DNA of 58,815 nucleotides from Clostridiales bacterium (GTDB taxonomy: Bacteria; Bacillota; Clostridia; Christensenellales; Pumilibacteraceae): contig JAFLVG010000011.1 of assembly GCA_022508445.1 (NCBI GenBank), forward strand, positions 1 to 58,815. Reading direction: 5' to 3'. This document shows, in pieces, positions 33,729 through 49,504 of the stretch. The notes under the pieces are model-generated. The model was not told the origin of the DNA. It ran no database searches and saw nothing but the letters and a program-made list of their open reading frames with translations. The first letter of the stretch is position 1. Each line of letters begins with the position of its first letter. The position numbers and the translations under genes are program-made.

Positions 33729-33737
33729 TATAAACAA

Positions 33738-33767
33738 AAAGGCTTTGCGAAATTTGCAAAGCCTTTT
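33738..33767. terminator. Two-way terminator closing the HAD operon and the glycan operon
   Basis: Stem AAAGGCTTTGC / GCAAAGCCTTT with A/T runs on both sides, between the convergent HAD gene and the last gene of the glycan operon. Confidence 0.92.
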
Positions 33768-33793
33768 TTATGCCGTAAATTGATATTTACATG

Positions 33794-35608
33794 TTACTTA
33801 CATTTAAGCATTGCGGATAGTGCGGCGATGAACGCGTCGTTATCCGCTTCATCGCGTATCGCGATACGAACATATTGTTTATCGGATATGATTTTACCCG
33901 ATAGATCCTTTGCTATTATATTGTGACGCAAAAGCAATTGCTTTACAAATTCGCCGGAAGTGATCCCTTTAAGTTCCAGTGTCAGATAATTCGCTTGCGA
34001 CGGAATTACGCGCAAATACTTTCCGAACTTTTTGAGCTCCGCGACAAACCGCGCACGCTCGGCTTTGAATTTTTTCAGCGCCGCCGCATAATCTTTTTTG
34101 TACTTTTCCTCGATTTGTAAGTAGAACTCGGCGAACGAATTTATATTCCATATTCCGACGTCATGCTTGATAAACTTAATGAAATCGGCGTCGCCAGACG
34201 CGATTATTCCCAGCCTCAATCCGGGTACTCCGTAGCTTTTCGATATGCTTTTGACTACGCACATGTTCGTATATCTATCGAGAAGCTCTTGCGAAATAAA
34301 CGAATTGTCGTCGCCGTCCGCAAAATCCACAAACGATTCGTCAAGCACGAAAAAGATGTTATTTACGGCCGTCCATTCGGCAAGCTTCATGACGTCCGCA
34401 GGCGGAATAAAGTTGCCGGACGGATTATCGGGGTTTATAAGTATCAATGTTTCTATGCCCTTGCCGCCGAAATACTCGATGACGTCCTTTGCCGTATAAG
34501 ACATGTCGGCATTATCGGGAGTAAAAATAACTTGCTCTTTCTTGTCGTATCTGTTCGAATACTCTTCGAACGTCGGCCGTATAATCCCTACCTTTCCGTC
34601 GATACGCGACATGACGGATTTAATAAGCTCCGCCGCACCGTTGCCGACTGCGATATTGTCAATGCTTACACCGAAATTTTTTGCCGCGAGCAAGCTGTTT
34701 ACGCGCATGCCCGAAGGATATTGCGTGGCCAAAATATCGAAATTCGCCTTTATCTCGTCGAGCAATCTTTGCGGAGGAAAATACGGGTTTACCAAATAGC
34801 AAAAGTCCAACAGCTTGGGATAGCGCCAATAACCGCCGTAACGGCTTTGTAGCGCCTTTATTTTATCGTCGCCCGTGGCAAACATAGAGGACGCTATATC
34901 CAAATCTTGAATATCGTCTATCTCGTACCACAGCTGTCCGTCCAGCCTTTTCGCCTTGATTTCGGGCTCGTCGAGCATCGTTATGATTTTTAAAACCTGC
35001 TCATAGTACTCATTATTGCCGACGGCGGCGCTGTACGCGCCCAAAAACGGAACGTAATGCGTTTTGGAAAAGTGCTTTCCGAACTTGTAAATATTCACCG
35101 TTTTATAGTACGACTTCATATCATCGAACTTGAATTTTTTGCCCGGAACAAATTCGAGAATATCGTCGTCATCCGAAAGCTTGACGCATGTTCCATCCAT
35201 CCAGCTCTCGTATTTATCGACAAGCGCGAGCGTATCGCGAGGATCGTTTACCAAAAGATCGATGACGGCGTCCTCTACGATAATGTCGGACTCGAACAGC
35301 AGAGTGTCGTCCTCACACAAATGCTTTTTTGCAAGCGACAGCGAATATATGTTGTTGGTCTTGTCGTAGATGTGATTGTTCACGTACTCTATCGGTGTTT
35401 TGACGCCGAGCGTGCCGATAAAGTCCACAAGCCTTTGCCCTTGATATCCGATGACTATTACAATCTTTTTCAGATTGTACGCTTCAAGCTGGTGCAACAA
35501 CCGCTCAATCAGCGATACTCCGTTGACCTTGACCATGCACTTTGTGTTGTTTTGCGTAAGCTCTTTGAGCCGCTTGCCCATTCCGGCAGCCAATATTACC
35601 GCTTGCAT
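33794..35608 (-). CDS. Fused nucleotidyltransferase and PLP-dependent aminotransferase/decarboxylase
   Basis: A 604-residue bifunctional protein. Residues 1-245 are a LicC/PntC-type nucleotidyltransferase (MQAVILAAGMGKRLKEL, then MVKVNGVSLIERLLHQLEAY), expected to make a CDP-linked small molecule. Residues about 260-604 are a class I/II PLP enzyme resembling HisC or CobD (NPYFPPQRLLDEI; LINPDNPSGNF; PLP Lys457 in SISKSYGVPGLRLG). A similar fusion is known from phosphonate synthesis (PntC, CTP:2-aminoethylphosphonate cytidylyltransferase with a transaminase domain, from memory); a CobD-like decarboxylase making a phospho-aminoalcohol is the alternative. It abuts licD (TAA-ATG with no gap) with GGAGGAG upstream, so it likely makes the donor for LicD. 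Confidence 0.85.
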   Translation of the reverse strand: MQAVILAAGMGKRLKELTQNNTKCMVKVNGVSLIERLLHQLEAYNLKKIVIVIGYQGQRLVDFIGTLGVKTPIEYVNNHIYDKTNNIYSLSLAKKHLCEDDTLLFESDIIVEDAVIDLLVNDPRDTLALVDKYESWMDGTCVKLSDDDDILEFVPGKKFKFDDMKSYYKTVNIYKFGKHFSKTHYVPFLGAYSAAVGNNEYYEQVLKIITMLDEPEIKAKRLDGQLWYEIDDIQDLDIASSMFATGDDKIKALQSRYGGYWRYPKLLDFCYLVNPYFPPQRLLDEIKANFDILATQYPSGMRVNSLLAAKNFGVSIDNIAVGNGAAELIKSVMSRIDGKVGIIRPTFEEYSNRYDKKEQVIFTPDNADMSYTAKDVIEYFGGKGIETLILINPDNPSGNFIPPADVMKLAEWTAVNNIFFVLDESFVDFADGDDNSFISQELLDRYTNMCVVKSISKSYGVPGLRLGIIASGDADFIKFIKHDVGIWNINSFAEFYLQIEEKYKKDYAAALKKFKAERARFVAELKKFGKYLRVIPSQANYLTLELKGITSGEFVKQLLLRHNIIAKDLSGKIISDKQYVRIAIRDEADNDAFIAALSAMLKCK

Positions 35609-36466
35609 TTAGTTCTCCTCCGCGGCGTTATCGGTAGTCGAATCGGATCTAGATTCGACGGTCGTATCCAAACAGATTATCTGCGGATTGTGTATGCAAA
35701 CGCGCTCGTTCTCGGGCGGCGGTTGCATATAGTCGCCGTAGATAGTGCGAAGCATCATATCGTATTTGGCAAATATCTTCAAATCGTAACCGCCGAACTT
35801 GATATCAATGTATTCATCCGTCAAACCTTTCGGGAATTTATCTCGCATTGTAACAGGCATCGACAAGTCTATATATTCGTAATTATCGGGCATATCCTTA
35901 TACTGCATAATGTAGGCTTCGCATTTTTCCTTGATGCGCCGCTTGGATTTTTTGGGGATTAAAAGCATCATTCTCGAAACAAGTTCAAGTATCTTGCCGC
36001 GCAACCCTTTGCCGGCTTTGAAAGGATGGTTGCGAGTATACACGAGGCGGAGCTTTGCTTTATAAAGAAACTTCTTACGCTTTTTCTTGTCCTTGGGTAT
36101 CCTGTCAAGCGGAAACACGTCGAGGAAAAATCCGTGATGTCCCGGTTTTTTCAACTCCTCTTCGCTCGACGCCATTATGGTATTGTCCTTATAAATCTTC
36201 GTATGTACGAAAATAGTGTCCGGATCGTCGCTCGCAAGAAGCGAATATCCGTCTGTCGGATGCTCGCGCCACACCGCGAGGAAGCGCTCGTACTCGTGCC
36301 GCTCCATTAAAACGTCCACGTCGTCGTCCCACGGTATAAATCCGCCGTGACGCACTGCACCGATTGCGGTGCCGTATGCAAGCGAGTATTTCAACCCGTG
36401 AGTCTTGCAGAACTCGTCGAACATGACGAGAATTTGGGTTTCGGCTTCTTGAAGTTTTAATAACAT
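35609..36466 (-). CDS. licD: LicD-family phosphotransferase (first copy)
   Basis: A 285-residue LicD/fukutin-type enzyme that transfers a phosphocholine-like group from a CDP donor to a sugar. Key region: YSLAYGTAIGAVRHGGFIPW followed by DDDVDVLM, carrying the metal-binding Asp cluster; then GFFLDVFPLDRIP; and the end DYMQPPPENERV. About 50% similar by eye to the neighbouring copy. The start is placed at ATG 36466 (AGGGGA 8 bases upstream); an in-frame GTG at 36607 would add 47 low-complexity residues. The stop directly abuts the fused transferase gene. Confidence 0.92.
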   Translation of the reverse strand: MLLKLQEAETQILVMFDEFCKTHGLKYSLAYGTAIGAVRHGGFIPWDDDVDVLMERHEYERFLAVWREHPTDGYSLLASDDPDTIFVHTKIYKDNTIMASSEEELKKPGHHGFFLDVFPLDRIPKDKKKRKKFLYKAKLRLVYTRNHPFKAGKGLRGKILELVSRMMLLIPKKSKRRIKEKCEAYIMQYKDMPDNYEYIDLSMPVTMRDKFPKGLTDEYIDIKFGGYDLKIFAKYDMMLRTIYGDYMQPPPENERVCIHNPQIICLDTTVESRSDSTTDNAAEEN

Positions 36467-36690
36467 GTTGTCATCCCCTTCGTTCGTTGCCGCCGCTTCG
36501 GCCTGCGGCACGAACTCCGTCATTGTATTTTGCGCGGCGCCGCATACCGCCGCTACCGGCATGTCCGCACTTTCACGATTGCGGTGACGCAGTCTGCTTT
36601 TCACCACGCCGATATAGCGAATGAGATACTGCCTTACAAGTACGTCGGCAATCAGTAAAAGTATTTTGAACGATCCGGATACAGTTACGT
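36467..36690 (-). other. Open spacer between licD copies, possible decayed membrane-protein tail
   Basis: This 300-bp gap is open in the licD frame for about 220 bases. It would encode a hydrophobic helix (FKILLLIADVLVRQYLIRYI), then a basic stretch (KSRLRHRNRE) and an Ala/Glu-rich tail. It has no start codon before the helix. It resembles the C-terminal end of an integral membrane glycan protein fused in frame to licD by deletion. Bases 36691-36766 hold nothing recognisable. Confidence 0.3.
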
Positions 36691-36766
36691 TTGCTATACT
36701 GCGTTTTTATCCATGCCTTTCAGTCTATGACCGATATCATACTCTCAACGTCTTTCGATATAAGCC

Positions 36767-37597
36767 TTAATCCTGCTTAACGGTGTTTTCTTCTTGCGCT
36801 TCGTTTAAATACGTTATTTCCGGATTGTGCTTGCAAACCCTTTCCTCCTCAGGCGGAAGCTGCATGTAATCACCGTACATCGTCGTAAGAAATTCATCGC
36901 TTTTGTTTGTTATCAAAACGTTAATTTGCTCGAACTTTATCTCGGAGGTTTCAAACAAATCTTTGGGATAGGAAAACCCGAGCACTCCGGGGCGTTCAAG
37001 TCCCATATAAACGAAATTGTCTTCCATATCTCTGTACTGCTGAATGTACTCGTGATAGCGTTGTTTGAGTTTGAGCTTGTACTTTTTGGGCTTCATTAGC
37101 AAAATTCTCGATACAAGATTGAGAAATTTACTGCCGTTTCTGTACGGAATATCCCGAGTGTAAACCAAGCGCAGTTTGGCTTTTCGCAAAAGTTTTTTGC
37201 GCTTTTTCTTGTCTGTGGGCACCTTGTCAAGCGGAAAGATATCGACAAAAACGCCCTGCGAGCCCGATACTTGCATTTTTCCGTCGGGCGACCATACAAC
37301 GCCGTCTTTATAGACCTTGCCGTGATTTATATGACAACCGGGATCTTCGTCTGTCGCAAGCGTGTAACCTTTGACAGGATTTTCACGCCACAATTTTACA
37401 AACCTTTTATACACGTTGCGGTCCATACAGATGTCTATATCGTCGTCCCACGGAATGAACCCGCCGTGCCGAACCGCGCCGAGCGCAGTACCTGCATACA
37501 CTGAATAGTTGATGTCGTTTTCACGGCAAAATTTATCGACAACCGTCAAAACCTCGAACTCAACCTTTTGCAGTTCTTTTAACCTTTGGTTTTCCAT
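36767..37597 (-). CDS. licD: LicD-family phosphotransferase (second copy)
   Basis: A 276-residue LicD paralogue: YSVYAGTALGAVRHGGFIPW then DDDIDICMD for metal binding; GVFVDIFPLDKVPTDKKKRK; end DYMQLPPEEERVCKHNPEI. AAGGAG lies 5-6 bases before the ATG. It differs from the first copy across the acceptor half, so the two probably decorate different sugars or positions. Transcribed with the rest of the locus. Confidence 0.92.
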   Translation of the reverse strand: MENQRLKELQKVEFEVLTVVDKFCRENDINYSVYAGTALGAVRHGGFIPWDDDIDICMDRNVYKRFVKLWRENPVKGYTLATDEDPGCHINHGKVYKDGVVWSPDGKMQVSGSQGVFVDIFPLDKVPTDKKKRKKLLRKAKLRLVYTRDIPYRNGSKFLNLVSRILLMKPKKYKLKLKQRYHEYIQQYRDMEDNFVYMGLERPGVLGFSYPKDLFETSEIKFEQINVLITNKSDEFLTTMYGDYMQLPPEEERVCKHNPEITYLNEAQEENTVKQD

Positions 37598-37780: not shown

Positions 37781-38689
37781 TCAGTCGGCTGCAATGCAGT
37801 CGGTAGTAGTTTCAAGCACTGTAATATTTCCGCTTATATCCACGCGCTCCCCCGCATTAACGAAAAAGCAATCGCCACACTGCGCTACTCTCCCACTGAC
37901 CATTCCAAAGCCGTCTGTCACAGTCACTGCGGTATAGCTACTATCGTTGAATACGGTATGAGCTCCGTCTTTCTTTTTTACAGTAAAATATTCACAGCGA
38001 GCAAGACAGTCATCAAACCGTATCGGCGTGTACTGCGAAAAGTCGAGGACAGACAATGCTTGTTCTAGGTGCAATTCACGACGATTGCCCTGATCGTCCA
38101 TACGGCAATAATCGAACAATCGAAATGTAGTATTGCTGTTCTGCTGTATTTCTACGAGCAAACAGCCCGCTCCTATCGCATGAACCGTACCCGCGGGGAC
38201 AAAATATGACTCGCCCTTTTTAATCGGAATGTAGTTAAGCAGATCGAGAATGGATCCGTCCTCAACCGCGCGTAAACACTCTTGACGATTTGTATTACGT
38301 TTAAAACCGAGATAAATACCTGCGCCTTCGGCGCAATCTACTACATACCACATCTCGGACTTACCCATCATGCCTTCGTGTCTTTTCGCAAATTCGTCGG
38401 TTGGATGCACTTGCACAGAAAGATTATCATCCGAGTCTATCAGCTTAATCAAAGCCGGAAACTCATTGAATGCTTCACAAGCTTTTCCCCATGTCGGTTT
38501 AGGACACGCGAATCCAATGCGCTCTCCGCTTTCTGTAAAATTTTCACCATCCGCATTGAACGAGCAAATCCACGCCTCGGCGATTTTTTCAGCTACTGCT
38601 GAATTTCCCGAACCGTTCAAGCGAAGGATATCATAAAGCCTATGTCCGCCCCAAATATAATTTTTAGTTATCGGTATCAGTTTTTTCAT
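37781..38689 (-). CDS. manA: Class I mannose-6-phosphate isomerase
   Basis: A 302-residue cytosolic zinc enzyme that interconverts fructose-6-P and mannose-6-P and feeds GDP-mannose or related donors. Landmarks: YIWGGHRL (start), LIKLIDSDDNLSVQVHPTDE with zinc-binding Gln/His, KSEMWYVVDCAEGAGIYLGF, YFVPAGTVHAIGAGCLLVEI (second zinc His) and EIQQNSNTTFRLFDY. Length fits the Bacillus type (about 315). Start ATG 38689 overlaps the flippase gene by 26 bases and lacks a good Shine-Dalgarno, so translation is likely coupled. Confidence 0.93.
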   Translation of the reverse strand: MKKLIPITKNYIWGGHRLYDILRLNGSGNSAVAEKIAEAWICSFNADGENFTESGERIGFACPKPTWGKACEAFNEFPALIKLIDSDDNLSVQVHPTDEFAKRHEGMMGKSEMWYVVDCAEGAGIYLGFKRNTNRQECLRAVEDGSILDLLNYIPIKKGESYFVPAGTVHAIGAGCLLVEIQQNSNTTFRLFDYCRMDDQGNRRELHLEQALSVLDFSQYTPIRFDDCLARCEYFTVKKKDGAHTVFNDSSYTAVTVTDGFGMVSGRVAQCGDCFFVNAGERVDISGNITVLETTTDCIAAD

Positions 38690-40328
38690 CTTGTTTTTCG
38701 GTGACTGCGGTTTCAACTTCGTTCGACTCAATCTCATCGGAGGTTGCGGCACAAGCGTTTGCTATTTGCTCTTCCGCACCAACTGCCGCCAATGTTGCCT
38801 TTTTACTCTTTCTTCCGAAAATGCGTTTCAATGTCGTGAGTAGATATTTAAACTCTTGCGTCCTATGATAAGCCAGCACAAAAATCAGATTAGGCAAAAT
38901 CAAACATATAACGAATTTTGCGATAAAGCACCATATTCCACTACTCGGGATAAAATAACAACAACCGAATGCGGCAGCGCCTGCACAAAATGCAACTATG
39001 GTATAAATCGCATATCGAATGAAATAGTTTACGGTATTTACCTTGAAATAATTTTTGTAAAGCACAAAAGGCTCTACCCACAGTGGCGCGGCTACCGTAC
39101 TTACTATCGTAGCCACAATAACGCCGTTTATGCCGATATATCTTACCAGCAGAATGTCCAGTCCCAAATTTATTCCCGCCTCGAACAGCGGCTTGAATTT
39201 ATCGTTCCAAAACAAGCCCGCGCATTCTTTGAATGCGTCTGTCATCCTTCGTGACGCAGTCAAGTAAAAGCTTGTACAAATTAATATGACGGTAAGATAT
39301 TCAAGCTTGTATGCGGCATTGCCCGTCAACAATACGATAAAGTCTTGAAAGCAAATGACAAGTCCCAATGTAAAAAAGCAGACAAGCCACATGAGCACCA
39401 TATTCAAAGCCTTGTATATCTTATAAACATCTTCCTTAGTTTTAGTGGCAATTAAATTTCCTACACTGCTTCTCACCGCTGTTATAAACAAGTTTATAAT
39501 CGATAAAAACGCAGTCGTAACAAGCGTATAGTTGGAATACATACCCAAAATGGTCGCACCTATATACGCAGAAATTATTATGCTGTCCGTTGAAAATACC
39601 GCTGCGCTACCGATCTTGTGAAAAACGAGCGCACTTGTATTTTTGGCGATCTCGCGTTTATCCGCTTTATTTATAGGCTGCGCTTTGCCTCGTATATCGG
39701 GAAACAGTTTGTACGATAAAGCAAAAACAATTGCCGCGTCCGCCGCGCTGAACACCACCATCACAGCAATGTAAGCATAGTAATTGCGCCAAACTACCAT
39801 AATGATGACCTGCACTATCGACAACGCCACGTTTACAATCAATCCCACCTTGCTCTCGATGTCGTTACGCTGATATGCGAAAACAAGTGACCGACGATAC
39901 GCAAAGAAATATCCTATAACATTGTGCGATAAGTAAAGAACGTACACGACAGTCAAATTGACGTCTACGTTAGGTGCATCTTTGATTAAATACGGCAATG
40001 CGGGAATAAGACTCAGTCCTATTACGACAACCACGCCACCTATTATCAAATAGAAATTACGATACAGCCTTAAAAACGACTTGATTTTTTCGGTATCGTT
40101 ATCTGCAATAGGCTTGTACATCGAATACACTATGGCGTTGCCTACTCCGAGTTCCGCCAACGACAACACATTCAAGATGTTGGAATACAAACCGTTTAAG
40201 CCGAGATATTCGACCGCCAAATATCTTACAAAAATTGCTCGAACAACAAAATTGAGCAGCATTTTCGTAACATACGCAATAGCTGCAAAGAACGTGTTTT
40301 TAGTAGAATGTGCCGCTCTTCCGTCCAA
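38664..40328 (-). CDS. Wzx-type oligosaccharide flippase
   Basis: A 554-residue membrane protein with 12-14 hydrophobic segments. N-terminal signature: NTFFAAIAYVTKMLLNFVVR, then VRYLAVEYLGLNGLYSNILN and LSLAELGVGNAIVYSMYKPI, typical of the polysaccharide synthesis MOP flippases of Gram-positive capsule clusters. It would flip the lipid-linked repeat unit built by the neighbours. The last 60 residues form an acidic Ala/Glu/Thr tail in the cytoplasm, not usual for the family. It starts 4 bases after the GT32 gene. Confidence 0.92.
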   Translation of the reverse strand: MDGRAAHSTKNTFFAAIAYVTKMLLNFVVRAIFVRYLAVEYLGLNGLYSNILNVLSLAELGVGNAIVYSMYKPIADNDTEKIKSFLRLYRNFYLIIGGVVVVIGLSLIPALPYLIKDAPNVDVNLTVVYVLYLSHNVIGYFFAYRRSLVFAYQRNDIESKVGLIVNVALSIVQVIIMVVWRNYYAYIAVMVVFSAADAAIVFALSYKLFPDIRGKAQPINKADKREIAKNTSALVFHKIGSAAVFSTDSIIISAYIGATILGMYSNYTLVTTAFLSIINLFITAVRSSVGNLIATKTKEDVYKIYKALNMVLMWLVCFFTLGLVICFQDFIVLLTGNAAYKLEYLTVILICTSFYLTASRRMTDAFKECAGLFWNDKFKPLFEAGINLGLDILLVRYIGINGVIVATIVSTVAAPLWVEPFVLYKNYFKVNTVNYFIRYAIYTIVAFCAGAAAFGCCYFIPSSGIWCFIAKFVICLILPNLIFVLAYHRTQEFKYLLTTLKRIFGRKSKKATLAAVGAEEQIANACAATSDEIESNEVETAVTEKQDEKTDTDN

Positions 40329-40332
40329 ATTA

Positions 40333-41109
40333 TTATCCTCTTTTACGGAACGGATACTTGAATATTTTTTTTACCGTCCCTCCGAAACCGTTAAAAACAA
40401 GACTGTGCGCAAGCCTACGCCCCATAAATTTGCTCAGCTTCCTGACTTTGGCAAGCTTTTTCAACTCCTCGGGGCTACGCCACGAATTAGTGAATCTGTG
40501 AATACAATATGTATTCGGAGTCACTTTGACCTTAAAAGTAAACATGTCTTGCGGTGAAAAATACGCCTTTGGGTAAATTGCGCCGTCAGGCAACACAATC
40601 GTTTTTTTGAAATTCAATTCTTTTATTGAATACATCTCGCGCATTTTTGCCGTAAACGGAATTGGCAACGGTACAATATTCATGCTGCCATCCTCATTTA
40701 TAAAGCGCGTGGATTTAAAATATTCAAGCATTTCCGCGAAAACCCGATGCCCGGCGACTGCGCCCAGAACCGCAGGCTCGAATGTGCCACGATCCTCATA
40801 CCCTGTAAAAATATCGTGTTCTAATAAATCGTCGAAGCTTTTGACAACCTCCACGTCGCTGTCGAAATATATTCCGCCGTGTTCGTGCAACACCCAAAAT
40901 CTGAAATAGTCTGCCACGAAAGCATATTTTTTCGCGGCGTAAGCTTGCGCAACATAGTCACCGTAAGCGTTAGGATCGAAATTATTCTCATCCCATCTGC
41001 AAATTTCATAGTCCGGCATAAATTTTTTCCACGACTCTATGCACATAATCGCCTTGTCTGACAACGGATTGCCGCCGAACCAACAAAAATGTATCTTTTT
41101 AGGTATCAC
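40333..41109 (-). CDS. GT32-type glycosyltransferase
   Basis: A 258-residue enzyme of the Gly_transf_sug/GT32 family: IPKKIHFCWFGGNPLSDKAI, CIESWKKFMPDYEICRWDE, YAFVADYFRFWVLHEHGGIY then FDSDVEVVKSFDDLL with the DxD metal motif, and the C-terminal HRFTNSW. It adds one sugar to the repeat unit; donor unknown. The start is GTG 41109, inside the end of the GT2 gene (11-base overlap), with AGAGGATG upstream. Confidence 0.9.
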   Translation of the reverse strand: MIPKKIHFCWFGGNPLSDKAIMCIESWKKFMPDYEICRWDENNFDPNAYGDYVAQAYAAKKYAFVADYFRFWVLHEHGGIYFDSDVEVVKSFDDLLEHDIFTGYEDRGTFEPAVLGAVAGHRVFAEMLEYFKSTRFINEDGSMNIVPLPIPFTAKMREMYSIKELNFKKTIVLPDGAIYPKAYFSPQDMFTFKVKVTPNTYCIHRFTNSWRSPEELKKLAKVRKLSKFMGRRLAHSLVFNGFGGTVKKIFKYPFRKRG

Positions 41110-42046
41110 TATTTTTCATCCTCTTCAATTTGTATTTCAACAAGTTATACGCCGTTTTCGCTCGGTATTTTAACGGACAATGCCGCATTTTCGCTTCTTT
41201 ACGGTATTTCCGCGCTTCCGCGGCTACCTCGTCGCGAAGCTCCGCCGGCAAAAAATCTTTGTTCGCCGCATAACCGCTTAACGTCAATGCGGCACGGCAT
41301 CTGAAATAATCGGCTACCCGTTTATCTCCGATTTCCGTAAAATAATCGACGTTCGACCGAAATGCGTCGCGCATATCCGCAAAGCTTTTCATGCTTTTCG
41401 AGCCATTCATTATACTGCCGCTACGTTGTCTGTAAAAATATAACGGCTTGTTTACTCGCACATATCGCTTGCACCCGTACAGCGTTTTATATGTGAAAAA
41501 CTCGTCCTCATGCAGTCTTCCCTCTTCGAAGAGAGTACTTCCGAGCAAGTCGCGTTTATAAATCTTATTCCACACTACTACGAGCGGCTTGCCTTTGCCC
41601 GAATCGGTCAAAAGCTTCTTGATGTCGTCGCGAACGGTAACAGATTTTTTGACGTGATTGACGGGCTCTGAAACTCTGCCTTCGCAAAACTTGACATATT
41701 CGCATTCGCAAATGTCGGCGTCGTATTTGACTACACAGTCTATCAAAGTTTTTACATAGTCCGCATCGACGTAATCGTCGCTGTCGATGAACACCACGCA
41801 TTCCCCGTTCGCCTGCTTCAAACCGCAATTCCGTGCCGACGACAGCCCGCCGTTCTCTTTATGAAATACCCGCACGCGCTCATCCGACTTCGCATATTTT
41901 TCGCATATCTCGCCGCTGTCGTCCGTGCTTCCGTCGTCAACGAGAATAATCTCCAAATCGGTATACGACTGCCCTATGACGCTGTTCAAACATTGTTCGA
42001 GATATTCCGACACATTATAAACGGGTATTATGACGCTCACCATCAT
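41099..42046 (-). CDS. Family 2 glycosyltransferase
   Basis: A 315-residue GT2 enzyme: MVSVIIPVYNVSEYLEQCLN, ILVDDGSTDDSGEICEKYA, KENGGLSSARNCGL and the DxD-type VVFIDSDDYVDADYV. The C-terminal half is helical and has no membrane segments. The start at 42046 overlaps the previous gene's stop as ATGA and has AGGAG upstream. Its C-terminal coding sequence recurs as a broken fragment at 37687-37769. Confidence 0.93.
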   Translation of the reverse strand: MMVSVIIPVYNVSEYLEQCLNSVIGQSYTDLEIILVDDGSTDDSGEICEKYAKSDERVRVFHKENGGLSSARNCGLKQANGECVVFIDSDDYVDADYVKTLIDCVVKYDADICECEYVKFCEGRVSEPVNHVKKSVTVRDDIKKLLTDSGKGKPLVVVWNKIYKRDLLGSTLFEEGRLHEDEFFTYKTLYGCKRYVRVNKPLYFYRQRSGSIMNGSKSMKSFADMRDAFRSNVDYFTEIGDKRVADYFRCRAALTLSGYAANKDFLPAELRDEVAAEARKYRKEAKMRHCPLKYRAKTAYNLLKYKLKRMKNSDT

Positions 42047-43041
42047 CGACCGCTTCTCCTCGACCGCGCGTACTTTTTGATAAGCCAAACAAATTTATGT
42101 TTAAGCGCGAACACCATGAACTTGCCTTGCCTGCAATAGTATTTTGCTTGTTTTATGCATTGTCGATAAAAATCGTCTTTGAGCTGTCTTTTAATTTCCT
42201 TGCGCACCATTTTGTACGGCTCATTGCCGCCGAGGTGCGATAAGCATATATTAAAGAATTTGTGCGTTATGTTGCGGCAAAACTGCGCCTCAAAATCAAA
42301 CTGCGACAAATCTATAAAGCGCTTGTAGCTATTGCCGATGAGCTTGGCCTCGTCCCAATTCCTTGGCTTGGCAGACATGATAGCCGATTGCGGATTAGTA
42401 CGGTAGTTATACAGGCACCCGTCTATAACGAACATCGACTGCGCCATGAATATGCACGACCTGATACACACCGAGTCCTCGCCTATTTTTATGCGATCGT
42501 CGATACCGTTTTGGACTTTTACAAAAATCTCGCGACGCACGGCTTTCGCGCAAACATTGGACGTAAAAGAATCGGCATAAGCATTTTCGATAAGTCGCGG
42601 AAAAATCTCGCGCTCCAAGTCCGCACGCGTAAAAAATCCGCTTCGTGCTTTGACCGGCTTCATTACGGTCGTATCTCTGTAAAACTTAACAGTACCGCAG
42701 CAAACGGCGTCCGCATCGTGCGCTTTCAGTGCGTCGTTGAACATATGAAGGTATTCGGGCGACACCGTATCGTCCGAGTCTACGCAAACGATGTATTCCC
42801 CACGCGCCGCGTTAGCGCCGGCTTTTCTCGCGCTCGTAACTCCGCCGTTGTCCTTGTGAATTACGACAACACGCTTGTCCGTCTTTTCGTACTCGTCGCA
42901 AATATCGGGACAGCCGTCCGGCGAACCGTCGTCTACGAGAATGAGCTCGAAGTCGCGGAACGTTTGCGCGAGTATGCTATCCACACATTCGCGCAAAAAC
43001 GCTTCCGATTTATATATGGGCACTATGACGCTGAATAACAT
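42043..43041 (-). CDS. Family 2 glycosyltransferase
   Basis: A 332-residue GT2 enzyme: MLFSVIVPIYKSEAFLRECV, ELILVDDGSPDGCPDICDEY, KDNGGVTSARKAGANAARGE and the DxD-type YIVCVDSDDTVSPEYLHMF. The C-terminus is basic (KKYARSRRSGR), as in membrane-associated transferases. It overlaps the polymerase gene by 32 bases and the next GT2 by four. Probably adds one sugar of the repeat. Confidence 0.93.
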   Translation of the reverse strand: MLFSVIVPIYKSEAFLRECVDSILAQTFRDFELILVDDGSPDGCPDICDEYEKTDKRVVVIHKDNGGVTSARKAGANAARGEYIVCVDSDDTVSPEYLHMFNDALKAHDADAVCCGTVKFYRDTTVMKPVKARSGFFTRADLEREIFPRLIENAYADSFTSNVCAKAVRREIFVKVQNGIDDRIKIGEDSVCIRSCIFMAQSMFVIDGCLYNYRTNPQSAIMSAKPRNWDEAKLIGNSYKRFIDLSQFDFEAQFCRNITHKFFNICLSHLGGNEPYKMVRKEIKRQLKDDFYRQCIKQAKYYCRQGKFMVFALKHKFVWLIKKYARSRRSGR

Positions 43042-44200
43042 GTTTCCTTACGCGTTTGGAAAAGTAATAATTTATATTGTCTTGCGTTTCGATCACGTCG
43101 GCGGCACAAGCGCAAACGAGTGCAAGTAATATATACACCATACTGTTCGCGTCTATCAACGATTGACAGAATGCGAACGCGACAAACGCCCGAGAACGTT
43201 TGTTCTTTATCCTCTTGAACAATGTCGCTATAATCAGTGCGAATAAAACAAAGCCGACAATTCCTACTTGTGACAGCAAGTCAAAATACAGATTGTGAGA
43301 CGAAGGATGAATACCGTAAGTCAAATAAACGTTGTTTCCGAAAACCGGGTGTTTTACCCACTCGGATAATGCGATAAGCCATAGATCGGTTCTGCCGTTG
43401 CTGTTCAAAAAATCGATATTTCGCTCGTTAGACAAATAAACAAACGCCACAATCCCTATTGCTGCAATAATAGGCAAAACAACTATTGACATCTTTGCAA
43501 AGCGTTTAGAACGAATATTGGTCAAAAGCAGAACGAGCGCTCCTATAAACCCGGATACAATAGCGCCTCTCGATTGAACGAAGTAAAGAGTGTATGCGTT
43601 AATTCCCATCGATGCTACAAGTACTGCCTTTTTAAGAAGATTAAACCTCTTGTAATGTCTTAAAATGCCGTATAACATAATGAGAAGTGACAACGCAATC
43701 GGGTACGCAATCGCATTTGCATTCGTCGTATATTCGGTCAAAATATGAATTTTCGTTCTATCCGCAAATCCGTTTTGATTGTTAATACAAATCATTATGC
43801 TTGCAATTACGCCTACGACTGCGCTAAACACGAGCAATGCTCTATTGGCTTTTACCGTTATCCTGCGGCTTATGACCGCATACAATAACAACAGAACCGG
43901 TCCGCCTAGGAAATTGGCCAAAGCTCCGAGCTTGATATTGCTTATATTAAGAAATTGAAGCAAGACAACATATAAGATGAACGAAAAGATAAATAATACC
44001 GACTCGTCAATCCGCCCTCGCCTAAATCGAACTATGCACATAAAACTCGCCAGTATGAGTCCGATATATTCTATAACCGCCAACATGCCGAAATCCATAT
44101 CGAGCAGGAACACTTCCGCCGCAACAGCAATAAGCAAGAACAAAAATGCGAAATTATACAGATAACGGTATTTCGCACTGTTTACGAAAAACCGTGACAT
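43010..44200 (-). CDS. O-antigen-ligase/Wzy-type polymerase
   Basis: A 396-residue membrane protein with about 10-12 hydrophobic segments and a large outer loop carrying the Wzy_C pattern: NSNGRTDLWLIALSEWVKHP, VFGNN, and GIHPSSHNLYFDLLSQVGIV, where Arg and His residues are the family's essential ones. It would polymerise or ligate the flipped repeat units. The start is set at ATG 44200 because TAGGAG lies 8 bases before it; an ATG at 44251 has no ribosome site. The end overlaps the GT2 gene. Confidence 0.88.
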   Translation of the reverse strand: MSRFFVNSAKYRYLYNFAFLFLLIAVAAEVFLLDMDFGMLAVIEYIGLILASFMCIVRFRRGRIDESVLFIFSFILYVVLLQFLNISNIKLGALANFLGGPVLLLLYAVISRRITVKANRALLVFSAVVGVIASIMICINNQNGFADRTKIHILTEYTTNANAIAYPIALSLLIMLYGILRHYKRFNLLKKAVLVASMGINAYTLYFVQSRGAIVSGFIGALVLLLTNIRSKRFAKMSIVVLPIIAAIGIVAFVYLSNERNIDFLNSNGRTDLWLIALSEWVKHPVFGNNVYLTYGIHPSSHNLYFDLLSQVGIVGFVLFALIIATLFKRIKNKRSRAFVAFAFCQSLIDANSMVYILLALVCACAADVIETQDNINYYFSKRVRKHVIQRHSAHI

Positions 44201-44258
44201 CTTGCGGCTCCTATGGGCGTTTAATCGATTTTCGATGATATATGTCGTCATTTTATTC

Positions 44259-45353
44259 TTATTGCATGACCAGCCCGTATAGCTGTTCGTTTATCTTAAC
44301 TCCGTCGAAATTTTCCACGGCGAAACCGTGCGCCGCCTCGCCCATGTTCTTTATCTCATCAGTATGCTCAATGCAATATACTATCTTCTCAATGAGCTTG
44401 TCCACATTGCGCGTTTCCACCAAGAAACCGTTTTCGTCGTTTTTGACCGCGTCTCTGCAACCGTTGGTGTCGCTTGCAATCACAGCCCTTCCCATTGCCA
44501 TTGCTTCCATTACGCATACGGGAAAGCCTTCTCGATACGTCGGCAAAACGAGCGCCGTGCAATCCTCGTAAAACGGTCTTACGTCGTTTGTCGTGCCGAG
44601 ATAGTTCACGCTTCCGTCGTCGATATACTCTTTTATGTCGGAAACCGTTAAGTCCCCCTCGCCGCCGAGATAGTTGAATACGGCTTCGGGATATTTTTTC
44701 TTGACGGCGCGCGCCGCCTTGCAGTATTCGATAACGCCCTTTGTTTTGAGCATGCGCGCAACCATGAGAAAGGTTTTATCGTTGACAAACGGCTTATAAG
44801 CAAACTCTTCCACGTCGATACCGATGCCGGGGATTATTTCGCATTGAGTTTCTTTTACAAGCCCGCGCGCGATAAATTCACTCTTATCGTCGTTGTTCAA
44901 AAAGAAAACTTTTTTTGCATGCTTAAACGATTTTTTATATTTAAAGCAGACGTACTTGCGCATCAGCTTCCACTTCAATCCGTTTTTAGTGAAAACGTCG
45001 CCTGCACCCTCGACCATACAGAATAAATTTTTTACACCCACCCTTGCCGCCGCAAGCGCACCGTATATATTGGGCTTTATCATAAACGTCATGACGATGT
45101 CCGGCTTGATTTTTTCGATAAGCGCGGCGTATCTTTTGGTAAGCACGGAAAGCTTAAACGGATTGATACTGCGGTTACTGCCGTTTATGCAATGGAATTC
45201 TATATTCTTTGCGACAATCTCTTTCTCTTTTTCGTTGTCCAATGTGATAACCGCAACAGTATGACCTTCCGATTGCAATTTTTCGATAAGCGCGGCGCGA
45301 AAGCCGACGACTTGCCTTGACATAGGCGTTAATATCAATATCTTTTTTGTCAT
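44259..45353 (-). CDS. Family 4 glycosyltransferase
   Basis: A 364-residue GT-B fold enzyme (GT4). N-terminal domain: KILILTPMSRQVVGFRAALI; C-terminal donor domain: FLMVARMLKTKGVIEYCKAA, then YREGFPVCVMEAMAMGRAVI and ASDTNGCRDAV, the E-x7-E region. Similar to capsular PglA-like or GalNAc-type transferases. It starts inside the stop of the mutase gene (ATGA overlap). Confidence 0.93.
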   Translation of the reverse strand: MTKKILILTPMSRQVVGFRAALIEKLQSEGHTVAVITLDNEKEKEIVAKNIEFHCINGSNRSINPFKLSVLTKRYAALIEKIKPDIVMTFMIKPNIYGALAAARVGVKNLFCMVEGAGDVFTKNGLKWKLMRKYVCFKYKKSFKHAKKVFFLNNDDKSEFIARGLVKETQCEIIPGIGIDVEEFAYKPFVNDKTFLMVARMLKTKGVIEYCKAARAVKKKYPEAVFNYLGGEGDLTVSDIKEYIDDGSVNYLGTTNDVRPFYEDCTALVLPTYREGFPVCVMEAMAMGRAVIASDTNGCRDAVKNDENGFLVETRNVDKLIEKIVYCIEHTDEIKNMGEAAHGFAVENFDGVKINEQLYGLVMQ

Positions 45354-47134
45354 ACTGTTTTCTCCGTAGTTTGTATAATTTCCAAAATACTGAAACGCAC
45401 GCGGTCAAGCAAGTTATGTGCTTGCGTCATCGTTTCCCCCTTCACTCCGAAATAAATCTTGAATTTGGGCTCGGTTCCGGAAGGTCTTACACAGCACCAC
45501 GCATTGTTTTCAAGCTCATAATAGATAACGTCACTTTTCGGCAAATCGATTTTTCCGACGGCATTCTTTCTCATATCCGTGCATGTGCCTACCGAATAAT
45601 CATGCACGGCAATCACGCTCAATCCGCCTATTTCGGTAATGGGTGATTTACGTAAATATGACAATATTCTTTGGGTTTTCTTTGCGCCGTCCGCACCCGC
45701 TACTTCAATGCTGTGCGCGCCTTCAAGATAATATCCGTATTTTTCATACATGCGGAGCATTTGATCCCACAGCGACAGACCTTGCATTTTGTAATATGCG
45801 GCTGCTTCACACACCGCCATGGCAGCGGCAACGCCGTCTTTGTCGCGCGCATACGTACCGAATAAACAACCGTAGCTCTCCTCTAACCCGAATAAATATT
45901 CGTACGCGCCTTTTTTTGCGTCGTATTTATTGCCGTTATCTTGCACTGCACGTTCGAATTGATTTATCTTATCGCCTATATATTTAAATCCGGTTAGAAC
46001 CTCAATTACCGTCAAGCCATATTCTTTCGCTATATCGTAAACCATGTTTGACGATACGACGGTAGTTACGATTGCACCGTTTGTGCGTTCATGCGGCAGA
46101 AGTCCCTTTGCCTGTTTTTGCGACAATTCGTATTCGGCTATCAACAACCCGCTCATGTTACCGCTCAAAGCCTTGTATTCGCCGCTTACTTTATCGAACA
46201 CGTACACACCCAGTCTGTCCGCGTCGGGGTCGGTCGCAAGAACAACGTCGGCATGTACTTCTCTCGCAAGCGCAAGCGCTAAATCGAATGCTCTTTTATC
46301 CTCGGGATTCGGATAGACAACAGTCGGAAAATTTCCGTTCGGTTGCTCTTGCTCCCGAACTACATAAACATTGGCAAACCCAAGCTCTTTCAGTATTCTG
46401 CAAACAGGTACCAGACCTGTGCCGTTGAGCGGCGTGTACACAATCTTCAAATCCTTTGCACACCGGGCAATTGCCTGTGGATTGATCACAAGCTTTTTCA
46501 GTTCCGAGATATACGCGTCGTCAATCTCGTCCCCGATATAGTTAAGCAATCCGCTCGACATTGCCATCTGCTCAGTCATGCGCTTTATTTTCGAATAATC
46601 GACTATATTATTGATCCTTTCCATAATTGCTTTGTCAAACGGCGGAACGATCTGACATCCGTCTGACTGATACACTTTATATCCGTTATACTGCGACGAG
46701 TTGTGGCTTGCAGTTATAACCACGCCCGCCGAGGCGTGAAGATAACGTACTGCGAACGACAGCTGCGGCGTGGAATGCAGCGTTGAGAATAAATACGTCT
46801 TAATCCCGTTTGCACAAAAAACAAGCGCGGACTCGCGCGCAAAATCCCATGATAAATTGCGACTGTCATAAGCTATAACAACGCTTCCGCATTGAACAGT
46901 AGAATTTATATATTCGGCAAGTCCTTGCGACGCTTTTCCGACGGTATATTTGTTCATGCGGTTTATTCCGGCACCCATTATGCCACGCAAACCGCCCGTG
47001 CCGAAATTAAGCTGCTTGTAAAATCTATCTTTGATTTCTCGCTCATCGGTAATGGATTCCAGTTCGGCACGAGTATCGTCGTCGAACACCTTATCTGTAC
47101 ACCACTGTTCGTATAGATTTCTATAATTTTCCAT
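45350..47134 (-). CDS. Phosphohexomutase (phosphoglucomutase/phosphomannomutase)
   Basis: A 594-residue alpha-D-phosphohexomutase that interconverts glucose- or mannose-1-P and -6-P. Key motifs: GTGGLRGIMGAGINRMNKY, ITASHNSSQYNGYKVY (phospho-Ser loop TASHN), metal loop VLATDPDADRLGV, sugar loop LFGLEESYG, and the phosphate loop VRPSGTEPKFKIYF. Length matches the large Bacillota type (PgcA, about 580). Start uncertain: ATG 47134, or TTG 47149 five codons upstream; neither has a good ribosome site. Provides sugar-1-phosphates for the locus. Confidence 0.93.
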   Translation of the reverse strand: MENYRNLYEQWCTDKVFDDDTRAELESITDEREIKDRFYKQLNFGTGGLRGIMGAGINRMNKYTVGKASQGLAEYINSTVQCGSVVIAYDSRNLSWDFARESALVFCANGIKTYLFSTLHSTPQLSFAVRYLHASAGVVITASHNSSQYNGYKVYQSDGCQIVPPFDKAIMERINNIVDYSKIKRMTEQMAMSSGLLNYIGDEIDDAYISELKKLVINPQAIARCAKDLKIVYTPLNGTGLVPVCRILKELGFANVYVVREQEQPNGNFPTVVYPNPEDKRAFDLALALAREVHADVVLATDPDADRLGVYVFDKVSGEYKALSGNMSGLLIAEYELSQKQAKGLLPHERTNGAIVTTVVSSNMVYDIAKEYGLTVIEVLTGFKYIGDKINQFERAVQDNGNKYDAKKGAYEYLFGLEESYGCLFGTYARDKDGVAAAMAVCEAAAYYKMQGLSLWDQMLRMYEKYGYYLEGAHSIEVAGADGAKKTQRILSYLRKSPITEIGGLSVIAVHDYSVGTCTDMRKNAVGKIDLPKSDVIYYELENNAWCCVRPSGTEPKFKIYFGVKGETMTQAHNLLDRVRFSILEIIQTTEKTV

Positions 47135-47141
47135 ATTTTTA

Positions 47142-47837
47142 TTATTCAAGTGAACTCGATTTATCTGTTAAGCAGCGAACAATTATACTTTGTATATCAT
47201 CCACTATGTAATCGGGTTTTATCCCACACGCATAATCGCTATTTTTATACATGCTATTCGTCATCACACGCACTGTTCTTATCGGCAACTCTTTCTTTAC
47301 TGCAAAATCCTTTTGCGGATTGTCGCCGACGTAAAGCATTTGTGCAAGAGCCACTCCGAGCGCTTCCGACATTTTTTTAAACGCGCGCGGATCGGGTTTT
47401 CTGAATTCCTTACCGCCGAGCTCGTCCGTTATTATTATCTCGTCAACTAATGCGTTTAATCCCAACGCGTCTATTTTTTTGCGTTGTCCGATCGGTCTTC
47501 CGTCCGTTATTATGCCGAGTTTATATCCGCTCTTGCGCAAATTCACAAGCGCGGTTTTGATGTCTTGCGAAAGCGTCAATTGGGGCGTGTGGTTGCGGTA
47601 AGTCGAAACAAGCTCTTTAACTACATCGGCCGTAATAATGTCGCTGTGAAGAGTCGCGAAGCGGTCGAATACTCCTATCGGGCTATCATCGAAAAGCGAA
47701 TTAAGCTCGGCGCGAGAATCTGGAATGCCGTACTTATTATTCAATATTTCCGATACGGCGTTGAATCCCGACGCCGCGTAGTCGCGCTCGGGAAACAGTG
47801 TATCGTCCAAATCGAAAACGACCGCTTTTATGTTCAT
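47142..47837 (-). CDS. HAD-superfamily phosphatase of the glycan locus
   Basis: A 231-residue HAD protein: motif I VVFDLDDTLFPERDYA, a helical cap, motif II LGIITDGRP, motif III Lys in GGKEFRKPDPRAF, motif IV LYVGDNPQKDFAV. HAD members next to ATP-grasp and DegT genes occur in surface-glycan clusters and may remove a phosphate from a modified precursor; the substrate here is unknown. Its start overlaps the sugar-transferase/ATP-grasp stop as ATGA. Confidence 0.88.
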   Translation of the reverse strand: MNIKAVVFDLDDTLFPERDYAASGFNAVSEILNNKYGIPDSRAELNSLFDDSPIGVFDRFATLHSDIITADVVKELVSTYRNHTPQLTLSQDIKTALVNLRKSGYKLGIITDGRPIGQRKKIDALGLNALVDEIIITDELGGKEFRKPDPRAFKKMSEALGVALAQMLYVGDNPQKDFAVKKELPIRTVRVMTNSMYKNSDYACGIKPDYIVDDIQSIIVRCLTDKSSSLE

Positions 47838-49504
47838 TCGTCCACCTTGACGCTGCTGTCAAACCGCGAATATACCGCACCGTCCTCGTAATCGTCGCTG
47901 TATTCGAGCTTTTCGCAGCGAAGCAGTCTGTACAGCTTTTCGCAGCTGTCGGCGCCCGCCGCAATGCTCATTGGCGCGCCGCCGCCGAAGCGCGGATTTA
48001 TCTCTATATATTTCACTTCGCCGCCGTCCGTCAAAAAGCACTGCACGGTGATCTGTCCGATAAATCCGAACGAATTCAGCAGGCGTTTCACGTCGTCTAT
48101 GATAGCGGCGTTCTTTTCTATCTTGCCTTTAAGCACTTCGCCGCCGCGCGTTCTCATGCGCCATCTCGGCACGACCGACAATATATTGCCGTCGAAGTCG
48201 CAAAAGCAATCTACCGTGTATTCCTTTCCCGACACGCATTCTTGCACTATCGGATTTTTGACGTATTTCAAAAAGAAGTCCAATTCGGTCTTGTTCTCTA
48301 TCCTGTATGTACCGATGCTCGAACTTCCGTCGCGCGGCTTGATAAACAGCGGAAACTCTGCGGTTTTCGAAACCGTTTTCTCATCGTATGTTTTCGGATA
48401 CTTAAATCCGTTATCGTCAAAGTGCTTTGCGGTGAGCCTTTTGTCACAGCAAACCTCGACCGCTTGCATGTTTGATATAAGCACGCACGCGCCGGTTTCG
48501 CTTTCGATTCTATCTTTATTTTGGGCAAGCTTAATAAGCTCGGTGTCGATTGTGGGTACGACGAGCGAAATATTGTGCGTTTTGCAAGCGTCTATCACCG
48601 CGTCGATATAGCCGTCGTCATCGATGCGCGGAACTATGATTTTTTCGTCGGCAAAATACAGCGCCGGCGCTGTCGAAGTGATGTCTGCGGCGCACACCTT
48701 GCCGTCTATTTTGAGCCTATCGCGCGCCGCTTTAAAACAGTTAATAAGCTCAACGCGCCGCCCTGCGCTGAGTATCAAAACGTTATACTCATGATTACCG
48801 GTAAAGAACTCCATAGTCGCTTGCCCTTCCTGCGAAATACCGCTTCGCTTGAACACTTTTCCCACCGTTTGAAAAATGATCTTTGTATCGCGCCACAGCG
48901 ATATACTATGTACATAATCGATATCGAGTTTGAACTTTTCCGCCCACGTTATGGCGTTTCGACCGTGGACCTGCGCATAACCGGTGAGTCCCGGTCTTAC
49001 GTCGTGTCTGTGACGTTGCTCTTCGCTGTAAAGCGGCAAATATCGGACAAGCAACGGCCGAGGTCCGACTATCGCCATATGCCCGACGAATATGTTAAAA
49101 AGCTCGGGCAGCTCGTCAAGCGACGTACTGCGCAAAAATTTTCCGTACTTTGTCAGCCGTTTTTCGTCGGGAAGAAGATTGCCTTCATTGTCCTTTTCGC
49201 AAGTCATAGTGCGGAATTTAATCAGCTTGAAAATCTTTTCCTCGCCGTTTTTACGCTTTTTGCCCGGTCGCTGTTGAGTAAAGAACGGATTGCCCTTCAT
49301 CTTGACAGCACCGACAATGATGAGTATAAGAAGTAACGGCGATAACACGACTATCGCAATGCCGCTGAGCAGCATATCGTAGAAGCGCTTGAAAAACACG
49401 CGATACAATAGTGCCGAAAGCAAAATAAGCACCGCGAGGCAGAAAACGCAGATAACGGTTATGCCCCACCATGTCGATATAAGATTGTCAAAAAACTCTT
49501 TCAT
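47834..49504 (-). CDS. Initiating sugar transferase fused to an ATP-grasp ligase
   Basis: A 556-residue fusion. Residues 1-235: a membrane helix (about 12-36), a PglC/WcaJ-like monotopic phosphoglycosyl transferase with YDMLLSGIAIVVLSPLLLIL, KLIKFRTM, the catalytic SLDELPELFN (Asp130-Glu131), MAIVGPRPLL and RPGLTGYAQVHGRN; it puts a sugar-1-P on undecaprenyl phosphate. Residues about 240-556: a CarB-like ATP-grasp ligase (NVLILSAGRRVELINCF; FIKPRDGSSSIGTYR; YIEINPRFGGGAP). The junction follows the usual PglC end (GISQEGQATMEFF) with almost no linker. ATG 49504 overlaps the DegT stop (TGATG). Confidence 0.92.
   Translation of the reverse strand: MKEFFDNLISTWWGITVICVFCLAVLILLSALLYRVFFKRFYDMLLSGIAIVVLSPLLLILIIVGAVKMKGNPFFTQQRPGKKRKNGEEKIFKLIKFRTMTCEKDNEGNLLPDEKRLTKYGKFLRSTSLDELPELFNIFVGHMAIVGPRPLLVRYLPLYSEEQRHRHDVRPGLTGYAQVHGRNAITWAEKFKLDIDYVHSISLWRDTKIIFQTVGKVFKRSGISQEGQATMEFFTGNHEYNVLILSAGRRVELINCFKAARDRLKIDGKVCAADITSTAPALYFADEKIIVPRIDDDGYIDAVIDACKTHNISLVVPTIDTELIKLAQNKDRIESETGACVLISNMQAVEVCCDKRLTAKHFDDNGFKYPKTYDEKTVSKTAEFPLFIKPRDGSSSIGTYRIENKTELDFFLKYVKNPIVQECVSGKEYTVDCFCDFDGNILSVVPRWRMRTRGGEVLKGKIEKNAAIIDDVKRLLNSFGFIGQITVQCFLTDGGEVKYIEINPRFGGGAPMSIAAGADSCEKLYRLLRCEKLEYSDDYEDGAVYSRFDSSVKVDE

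Follow-up and report, generated by a model that had tools for sequence, protein, structure and literature searches.

The window analysed here, all 58,815 nucleotides of contig JAFLVG010000011.1 (assembly GCA_022508445.1) from a Clostridiales bacterium of the family Pumilibacteraceae, carries on its minus strand two LicD genes and a gene for a 604-residue fusion of a LicC/PntC-like nucleotidyltransferase with a pyridoxal phosphate (PLP) enzyme, which together form the end of a Wzx/Wzy-type glycan operon. It is proposed from sequence comparison, at a probability of roughly 0.6, that the fusion makes cytidine diphosphate (CDP)-ethanolamine from phosphoserine and that the LicD proteins move phosphoethanolamine to the glycan of the upstream operon. 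The PLP half would decarboxylate O-phospho-L-serine to phosphoethanolamine, the nucleotidyltransferase half would couple this with cytidine triphosphate to give CDP-ethanolamine, and the two LicD proteins would transfer phosphoethanolamine from CDP-ethanolamine to the glycan. In an alternative order, the PLP half might act on the cytidine monophosphate (CMP)-linked form, as reported for FrbH with its own substrate. What we infer here is which substrate the PLP half uses, that it decarboxylates rather than transaminates, which product results and what accepts the group from LicD; the identities and order of the genes, their conservation and their partner genes were observed directly. The features concerned are as follows.

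36767..37597, minus strand: LicD1, 276 residues; Pfam LicD
35609..36466, minus strand: LicD2, 285 residues from the probable ATG; a longer listed open reading frame (ORF) begins at 36607
33794..35608, minus strand: fused nucleotidyltransferase / CobD-like PLP enzyme, 604 residues; identified from Pfam, NCBIfam, solved chains and a 46-row alignment
34871..35608, minus strand: nucleotidyltransferase half, LicC/PntC-like, residues ~1-246
33803..34855, minus strand: PLP half, CobD-like, residues 252-602; putative PLP lysine K457
33736..33768, minus strand: terminator-like hairpin with T-run, 3' of the fusion; 13-pair stem
37781..50631, minus strand: upstream glycan genes (DegT aminotransferase, sugar transferase-ATP-grasp fusion, HAD, glycosyltransferases, Wzy_C, Polysacc_synt flippase, phosphomannose isomerase-like)

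Layout of the operon

A first-pass annotation of this DNA had recognised two LicD enzymes beside a fused nucleotidyltransferase/PLP enzyme, and the ORFs were found exactly there, with the Pfam domains confirmed. The stop codon of LicD2 abuts the start codon of the fusion (TAA-ATG). For LicD2 itself, the GTG start at 36607 is doubtful, and the ATG at 36466 lies behind a AAGGGGATG-like ribosome site. The gap from the isomerase-like gene to LicD1 is 183 bases and that from LicD1 to LicD2 is 300 bases; given these gaps, the glycan genes and both LicD genes are likely to share one transcript. A hairpin scan gave 8 terminator-like sites against 6.0 in shuffled sequence, the site at 33768-33736 having the longest stem and being placed as expected. 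The upstream set also holds a phosphohexomutase-like gene, identified by eye. The Pfam scan of this set omitted ORFs 42043-43041 and 45350-47149, the former of which clusters with the GT2 of 41099-42088.

LicD proteins and their possible donors

Both small ORFs match Pfam LicD (PF04991) far above the gathering threshold of 22.6 bits (145.7 bits, E 2.9e-42, and 133.3 bits, E 1.8e-38). The two proteins share 48% identity over 273 columns, both keep the GAVRHGGFIPWDDD motif, and PWDDD, which includes the DDD expected of LicD proteins, is present in each. They were the only LicD matches found in the whole host genome (1.78 Mb, 45 contigs, 96% complete). Their sole NCBIfam match was to the Mf1 model, at 91.5 and 90.8 bits and so under its cut-off of 225. 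Mf1 of Mycoplasma fermentans is described in passages of PMC11982090 as a LicD-family enzyme transferring phosphoethanolamine from CDP-ethanolamine; it belongs to the same family as both window proteins but differs in its acceptor, a glycolipid.

The first-pass annotation had also claimed that LicA and LicB are missing. The LicA part held: the best choline kinase (PF01633) match in the host genome scored 18.5 bits, under the cut-off of 29. For LicB, no search was made. An amine made and CDP-activated inside the cell, followed by LicD transfer, is still the likeliest scheme.

Phosphoenolpyruvate mutase (PepM) is present in the host genome, on contig C34 (L002) and not on the contig of the fusion. 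A row of genes at C34 5527-9654 encodes a PF01467-PepM fusion (437 residues, with the EDKxxxxxNS motif as EDKTGLKQNS), a thiamine pyrophosphate enzyme taken for phosphonopyruvate decarboxylase (Ppd), and a fusion of a nucleotidyltransferase with an iron-containing alcohol dehydrogenase; C34 holds two cytidylyltransferase-like domains. From this gene content, it is therefore likely that the set would make hydroxyethylphosphonate and its CMP form, by analogy with the cytidylyltransferase of Fom1 as described in passages of PMC6697681. A genome search for pepM and ppd had been suggested at the outset as a check for phosphonate; both genes were present, but in a set that points to hydroxyethylphosphonate. 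The LicD proteins might use CMP-hydroxyethylphosphonate from C34 instead of, or besides, the fusion product, an alternative that is compatible with the CDP-ethanolamine proposal and that we consider unlikely. It draws on the lack of other LicD matches in the genome and on the two cytidylyltransferase-like domains of C34, but LicD2 directly abuts the fusion, and LicD still neighbours the fusion in relatives of the family that lack pepM; other transferases near the C34 set were not searched for.

The fused enzyme

By Pfam, the fusion consists of NTP_transf_3 and Aminotran_1_2, and the host genome contains one full-length match to it. The fusion is not an artefact, because alignment A2 (46 rows with the window fusion) holds 45 other rows that match it at 60-74% identity (one row, L018, repeats L031). 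Among solved chains, those closest to the nucleotidyltransferase half were Treponema PntC 6pd1 (E 1.3e-13), which aligns over residues 2-240 of the fusion only, and pneumococcal LicC 1jyk (E 3.5e-12). The signature GxG(T/S)Rx4-8PK is present in the loose form GMGKR(x8)TK, with Thr for the consensus Pro and Lys for T/S, and R13, K23 and E106 are invariant in 46/46 rows. The invariant E106 aligns with Glu104 of the Treponema denticola enzyme (Tde-PntC), where LicC has Asp; in the structure, Glu104 is reported near the primary amine of 2-aminoethylphosphonate (AEP) (passages of PMC6697681).

For the PLP half, the best NCBIfam model was CobD TIGR01140 at 157.8 bits, followed by HisC TIGR01141 at 137.6 bits, both under cut-off. 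Each of the two models matches 46/46 rows of A2, with best E values of 2.6e-55 for CobD and 1.5e-47 for HisC. The best solved chain was 6oux (E 4.6e-42), then 3ftb and CobD 1lc5. The CYLxNPY and WNIN motifs of the PLP half are common to 6oux, and WNIN also occurs in 3ftb; CobD 1lc5 has SANINPL, not CYLxNPY. The 6oux chain is SMUL_1544, which we take to be an L-serine-O-phosphate decarboxylase. Its substrate is not stated in the passages available from PMC7755780, PMC6461909, PMC8749415 and PMC8092220; in the first of these it is called threonine phosphate decarboxylase-like and assigned to a norcobamide cluster, next to cbiB. Around the window fusion no cobamide gene was noted, cbiB not having been searched for. 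Of the sources originally suggested for the transferred group, a phospho-aminoalcohol from a CobD-like decarboxylase fits best; the PLP half matches the CobD and HisC models and 6oux.

Two other activities of the PLP half were weighed against these matches. It is improbable that this half is a transaminase forming an amino-phosphate from a phospho-aldehyde or -ketone, such as serinol phosphate from dihydroxyacetone phosphate, for which the Campylobacter capsule is said to offer a precedent: HisC scores well and matches every row, but the CobD model and 6oux score higher, and WNIN is common to 6oux and 3ftb, no alignment with a proven transaminase having been viewed. Slightly less probable again is decarboxylation of L-threonine phosphate as by a true CobD, with CDP-1-aminopropan-2-ol as the donor. 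Here the best NCBIfam model is indeed that of the threonine-phosphate decarboxylase CobD and the product would again be a primary amine, but the score lies far under the CobD cut-off and CYLxNPY is shared with 6oux rather than with 1lc5.

Distribution of the fusion and its relation to phosphonate genes

A scan of named genomes gave at least 565 confirmed relatives from at least 591 pattern matches, a fused architecture being established for part of them only. The 80 top-scoring of these at least 565 relatives were kept, all covering the query length (L074 without the first residues), under titles that include Lachnospiraceae, Ruminococcus, Butyrivibrio, Schaedlerella, Bullifex and Treponemataceae. 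Carriers include Butyrivibrio sp. MC2021 (L102), Schaedlerella arabinosiphila (L076) and Ruminococcus flavefaciens (L089), the last with an opine dehydrogenase as neighbour of the fusion. With 7 loci from the family of the host and the window itself, they make a set of 88 loci, 86 of them distinct (L031 and L018, and L036 and L019, are the same contigs). As the best-scoring 80 are biased to close relatives, a sample of the class served as a check, and 12/391 evenly drawn genomes had a match at E <=1e-100, the window's included. Plasmid records with a match numbered 18, of which 8 cover at least 80% of the query at 26-48% identity; they annotate the fusion as an aminotransferase or nucleotidyltransferase only, or not at all. 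No fusion match was found in phage records. The fusion is not rare and is ordinary in its distribution, so that the earlier description of the arrangement as compact and unusual does not stand. No function assigned to the fusion was found in a literature search.

Within the family, matches to the fusion (E <=1e-30) occur in 9/74 genomes, 8 of them with both halves, the window's counted; in G015 the fusion runs into a contig end, and in G023 only the nucleotidyltransferase half is present. In G023 (L023 9268-10901), LicD and the nucleotidyltransferase half are kept without the PLP half and without either of the reductases described below (PF02317, PF02423). The PepM fusion (E <=1e-20) is present in 6/74 family genomes, the match in G017 being partial. 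Both occur together in 1/74 genomes, that of the window, with 0.73 expected and P(>=1) = 0.55; as this overlap is that expected by chance, the fusion is independent of pepM. No pepM was found in the other family carriers (0/8), and the phosphoserine route fits them because phosphoserine needs no pepM.

Scans for PepM and Ppd covered the 88 loci. Ppd was found near the fusion in 1/88 (L096), and L044 gave one weak PepM match, covering the cytidylyltransferase-like part only. In the class sample, where up to 8 neighbouring genes were listed per locus, neither was found at any of 11 loci. The PLP half is not class V, Aminotran_1_2 being its only Pfam match, and so lacks what marks the Treponema-type PntC-AEP transaminase. 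The best AEP transaminase match in the host genome reached 52.2 bits against a cut-off of 360.8, and similarly weak matches occur in 14/14 control genomes. The reading of the fusion as a phosphonate (AEP) enzyme, which the first-pass annotation had offered as a PntC-like option, is disfavoured, the PLP half being CobD-like and 6pd1 aligning over the other half alone. That a PntC-like enzyme makes and activates AEP is very improbable: pepM and ppd do occur in the host genome and a Ppd fragment precedes the fusion in L096, but the host set sits with the nucleotidyltransferase-alcohol dehydrogenase fusion on C34, and the PLP class, the chance overlap with pepM, the lack of an AEP transaminase above cut-off and the near absence of Ppd from the loci (0/11 in the class sample) all argue against it.

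Reductase partners of the fusion

The unexpected part of the findings is an association of the fusion with reductase genes. Neighbours were taken as ORFs of at least 100 residues grouped by BLAST clusters, with Pfam run on 5 opine dehydrogenases and 3 ornithine cyclodeaminase (OCD)/mu-crystallin proteins. Within three genes of the fusion, the 86 loci comprise 30 with an opine dehydrogenase (PF02317), 18 with an OCD/mu-crystallin protein (PF02423), 2 with both and 36 with neither; for the 63 loci with at least 1.5 kb on each side, the counts are 23, 16, 1 and 23. Directly adjacent reductase genes number 50 in 49 loci, 49 of them on the same strand and 46 of those no more than 60 bases away; ten overlap by 4. 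The N-P-x-x-H motif, which has a catalytic meaning in opine dehydrogenases, was present in 33/33 opine proteins. Of 22 OCD proteins searched with simple patterns, 13 gave the Gly-rich motif and 15 the Lys motif, so that some of these proteins are truncated or divergent.

When the opine and OCD labels are placed on a tree of all 86 distinct fusions, they switch no fewer than 15 times across 48 rows. Taken singly, the labels require 22 changes (opine) and 15 changes (OCD) versus 25.1 and 16.6 in shuffles; this is a quick tree in which 31/83 inner branches are open, and 15 and 11 changes, respectively, are forced even when only its starred branches are counted. The window fusion belongs to a starred group of 5, made up of 2 opine loci, 2 OCD loci and the window. 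Because the labels interchange on the tree, opine dehydrogenase and OCD/mu-crystallin are read as two unrelated families in one shared role. OCD/mu-crystallin proteins reduce imines. Opine dehydrogenases join keto acids to amines (passages of PMC6033044). The association suggests N-carboxyalkylation of the amine in relatives of the window fusion.

Among the nine family carriers, PF02317 was found once each in G005, G014, G025 and G027, and PF02423 above cut-off in G010, G015 and G040, always beside the fusion; the G040 gene is split over two frames, and G010 has a second PF02423 match elsewhere that is under cut-off (19.1 bits). Neither family was found in the window genome or in G023. The only negative control for genome-wide co-occurrence was a set of 14 named genomes; PF02317 was found in 0/14 and PF02423 in 8/14, 6 of these above cut-off. 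In the class sample, a reductase is the next gene in 6/11 loci, on the opposite strand in L127. Loci L128, L129 and L130 repeat L041, L046 and L072, L131 ends at a contig end, and a reductase is the next gene in 4/8 new loci. The most distant homologue of the sample, L137 (43% identity), also has a reductase next door. As part of the CDP-ethanolamine proposal, the amine is probably altered further in many relatives by reductive N-carboxyalkylation, and in a few perhaps by methyl- or formyltransferases; since the window genome has neither reductase, its headgroup would be a plain amine.

Transferases and other partner genes

LicD lies within three genes of the fusion in 31/88 loci and in 25/63 well-flanked loci, a count upheld by a motif recheck. 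A Glyphos_transf cluster, one member of which was Pfam-scanned, is near the fusion in 11/88 loci, and a CDP-alcohol phosphatidyltransferase begins 1 bp after it in Erwinia and Rahnella (Pfam on the Erwinia protein). Like LicD, these are families that use CDP-alcohols, and such partners, together with reductases of an amine-coupling family near the fusion in 50/86 loci, speak for the CDP-ethanolamine proposal. On the Erwinia and Rahnella plasmids (L139, L143), the fusion and phosphatidyltransferase stand within an ATP-grasp/HAD-IIIC cluster. In L136 the fusion is followed by a methyltransferase, as it is in L106 at a distance of 643 bases; in Gloeothece, the order is fusion, methyltransferase, LicD. 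In Fusobacterium vincentii, LicD is nearby, a formyltransferase gene overlaps the start of the fusion and a DUF1015 gene overlaps its end; a DUF1015 gene also overlaps the fusion end in L063. No further DUF1015 was found in the loci by tblastn.

A fusion core combined with exchangeable partners is a broader and more tentative proposal, possible but short of an even chance. The fusion would be the core of a widespread modular system in which it supplies CDP-ethanolamine from phosphoserine, an interchangeable enzyme modifies the nitrogen, and a CDP-alcohol transferase (LicD, Glyphos_transf or CDP-alcohol phosphatidyltransferase) places the headgroup. An opine dehydrogenase or OCD/mu-crystallin reductase would give an N-carboxyalkyl-ethanolamine headgroup, possibly before transfer; alternatively, a methyl- or formyltransferase would act. 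N-carboxyethyl-ethanolamine phosphate is reportedly a glycan substituent of Proteus O-antigens. The modular system, if true, would supply a biosynthetic route to it, and a narrow literature search found nothing on its biosynthesis. No paper pairing LicD with threonine-phosphate decarboxylase or with opine/octopine dehydrogenase was found, and LicD appeared with ornithine cyclodeaminase only in a CoAlation paper.

Several points count against the CDP-ethanolamine proposal. Glu196, the other residue of Tde-PntC that contacts the amine, is replaced in the alignment by Tyr (Y202). The CobD score is far under the equivalog cut-off of 290.55, with the HisC transaminase close behind. Invariant K567 stands at the position of CobD Arg323, so phosphate binding may differ; speculatively, this replacement could reflect a phosphodiester substrate. 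In L096, the C-terminal part of a Ppd (2-523, 48% identity) lies ~36 bases upstream of the fusion at a contig end and suggests phosphonate use at that locus; PepM gave no match in that genome, the contig being cut at that place. LicD is missing within three genes in 38/63 well-flanked loci, and a reductase in 23/63, the window among them. A link of DUF1015 to a serine kinase and phosphoserine supply appears weak: the Fusobacterium protein matched free serine kinase chains (5x0j and others) at E 0.012, the L063 protein gave no match, and DUF1015 is not mentioned in the passages on serine kinase in PMC5120207.

Comparison with known systems

The cytidylyl activation is of a known kind, of which the window fusion is a variant, and the reductase association is the unexpected part. 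FrbH has cytidylyltransferase and decarboxylase in one protein, with cytidylylation first and decarboxylation second (passages of PMC8976061). Compared by description, it has the domain order of the window fusion, an N-terminal cytidylyltransferase and a C-terminal PLP enzyme, but acts on 2-amino-4-phosphonobutyrate for the antibiotic FR-900098, whereas the window fusion is encoded alongside LicD in a glycan operon. PntC of T. denticola (6pd1) likewise joins a LicC-like cytidylyltransferase to a PLP enzyme and shares the Glu near the amine; its PLP half, however, is a class V AEP transaminase in place of the CobD-like half. For a gene of the Treponema type, pepM and ppd would be expected next door; those of the window's host lie on another contig. 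The lic1 phosphocholine system (LicA/LicB/LicC/LicD) has the same LicC-type activation and LicD transfer but differs in its amine, which in the host, without choline kinase above cut-off, would come from the fused PLP enzyme inside the cell. SMUL_1544 and CobD (6oux, 1lc5) belong to the sequence family of the PLP half, with motifs in common, but the solved chains have 364-393 residues and no nucleotidyltransferase half. CobD serves cobamides. The same is described for SMUL_1544 in passages of PMC7755780.

Phosphocholine and phosphoethanolamine on bacterial glycans shape host immune contact. Their influence on contact with host immunity is described in passages of PMC11982090. Bacteria without choline uptake need another source of headgroups, and an enzyme leading from phosphoserine to a CDP-amine, if the proposal is true, gives one. 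Gene neighbourhoods would then predict specific headgroups, and given the scant annotation in plasmid records, the chemistry of the fusion may be hidden in many genomes.

Further observations on related loci

Downstream of the fusion in L039, L048, L081 and L105 are a nucleotidyltransferase gene and an amidohydrolase and, in L048, a nucleotidyltransferase-choline kinase fusion (Pfam), which is LicA/LicC-like and stands near an ethanolamine-type fusion. Priestia megaterium plasmid pBM700 (L142, 5992-9638) encodes a fusion of the same architecture at 30% identity, near a 1-deoxyxylulose-5-phosphate reductoisomerase, two ATP-grasp genes and an AAC(3)-type acetyltransferase. This is possibly a natural product cluster, and by likeness of gene content the neighbourhood seems to recall FR-900098-type clusters. 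In the window itself, a bacterial sugar transferase is fused to a PylC-like/ATP-grasp domain at 47834-49633, and L016 holds a 560-residue relative of this protein with 71% identity over 556 columns.

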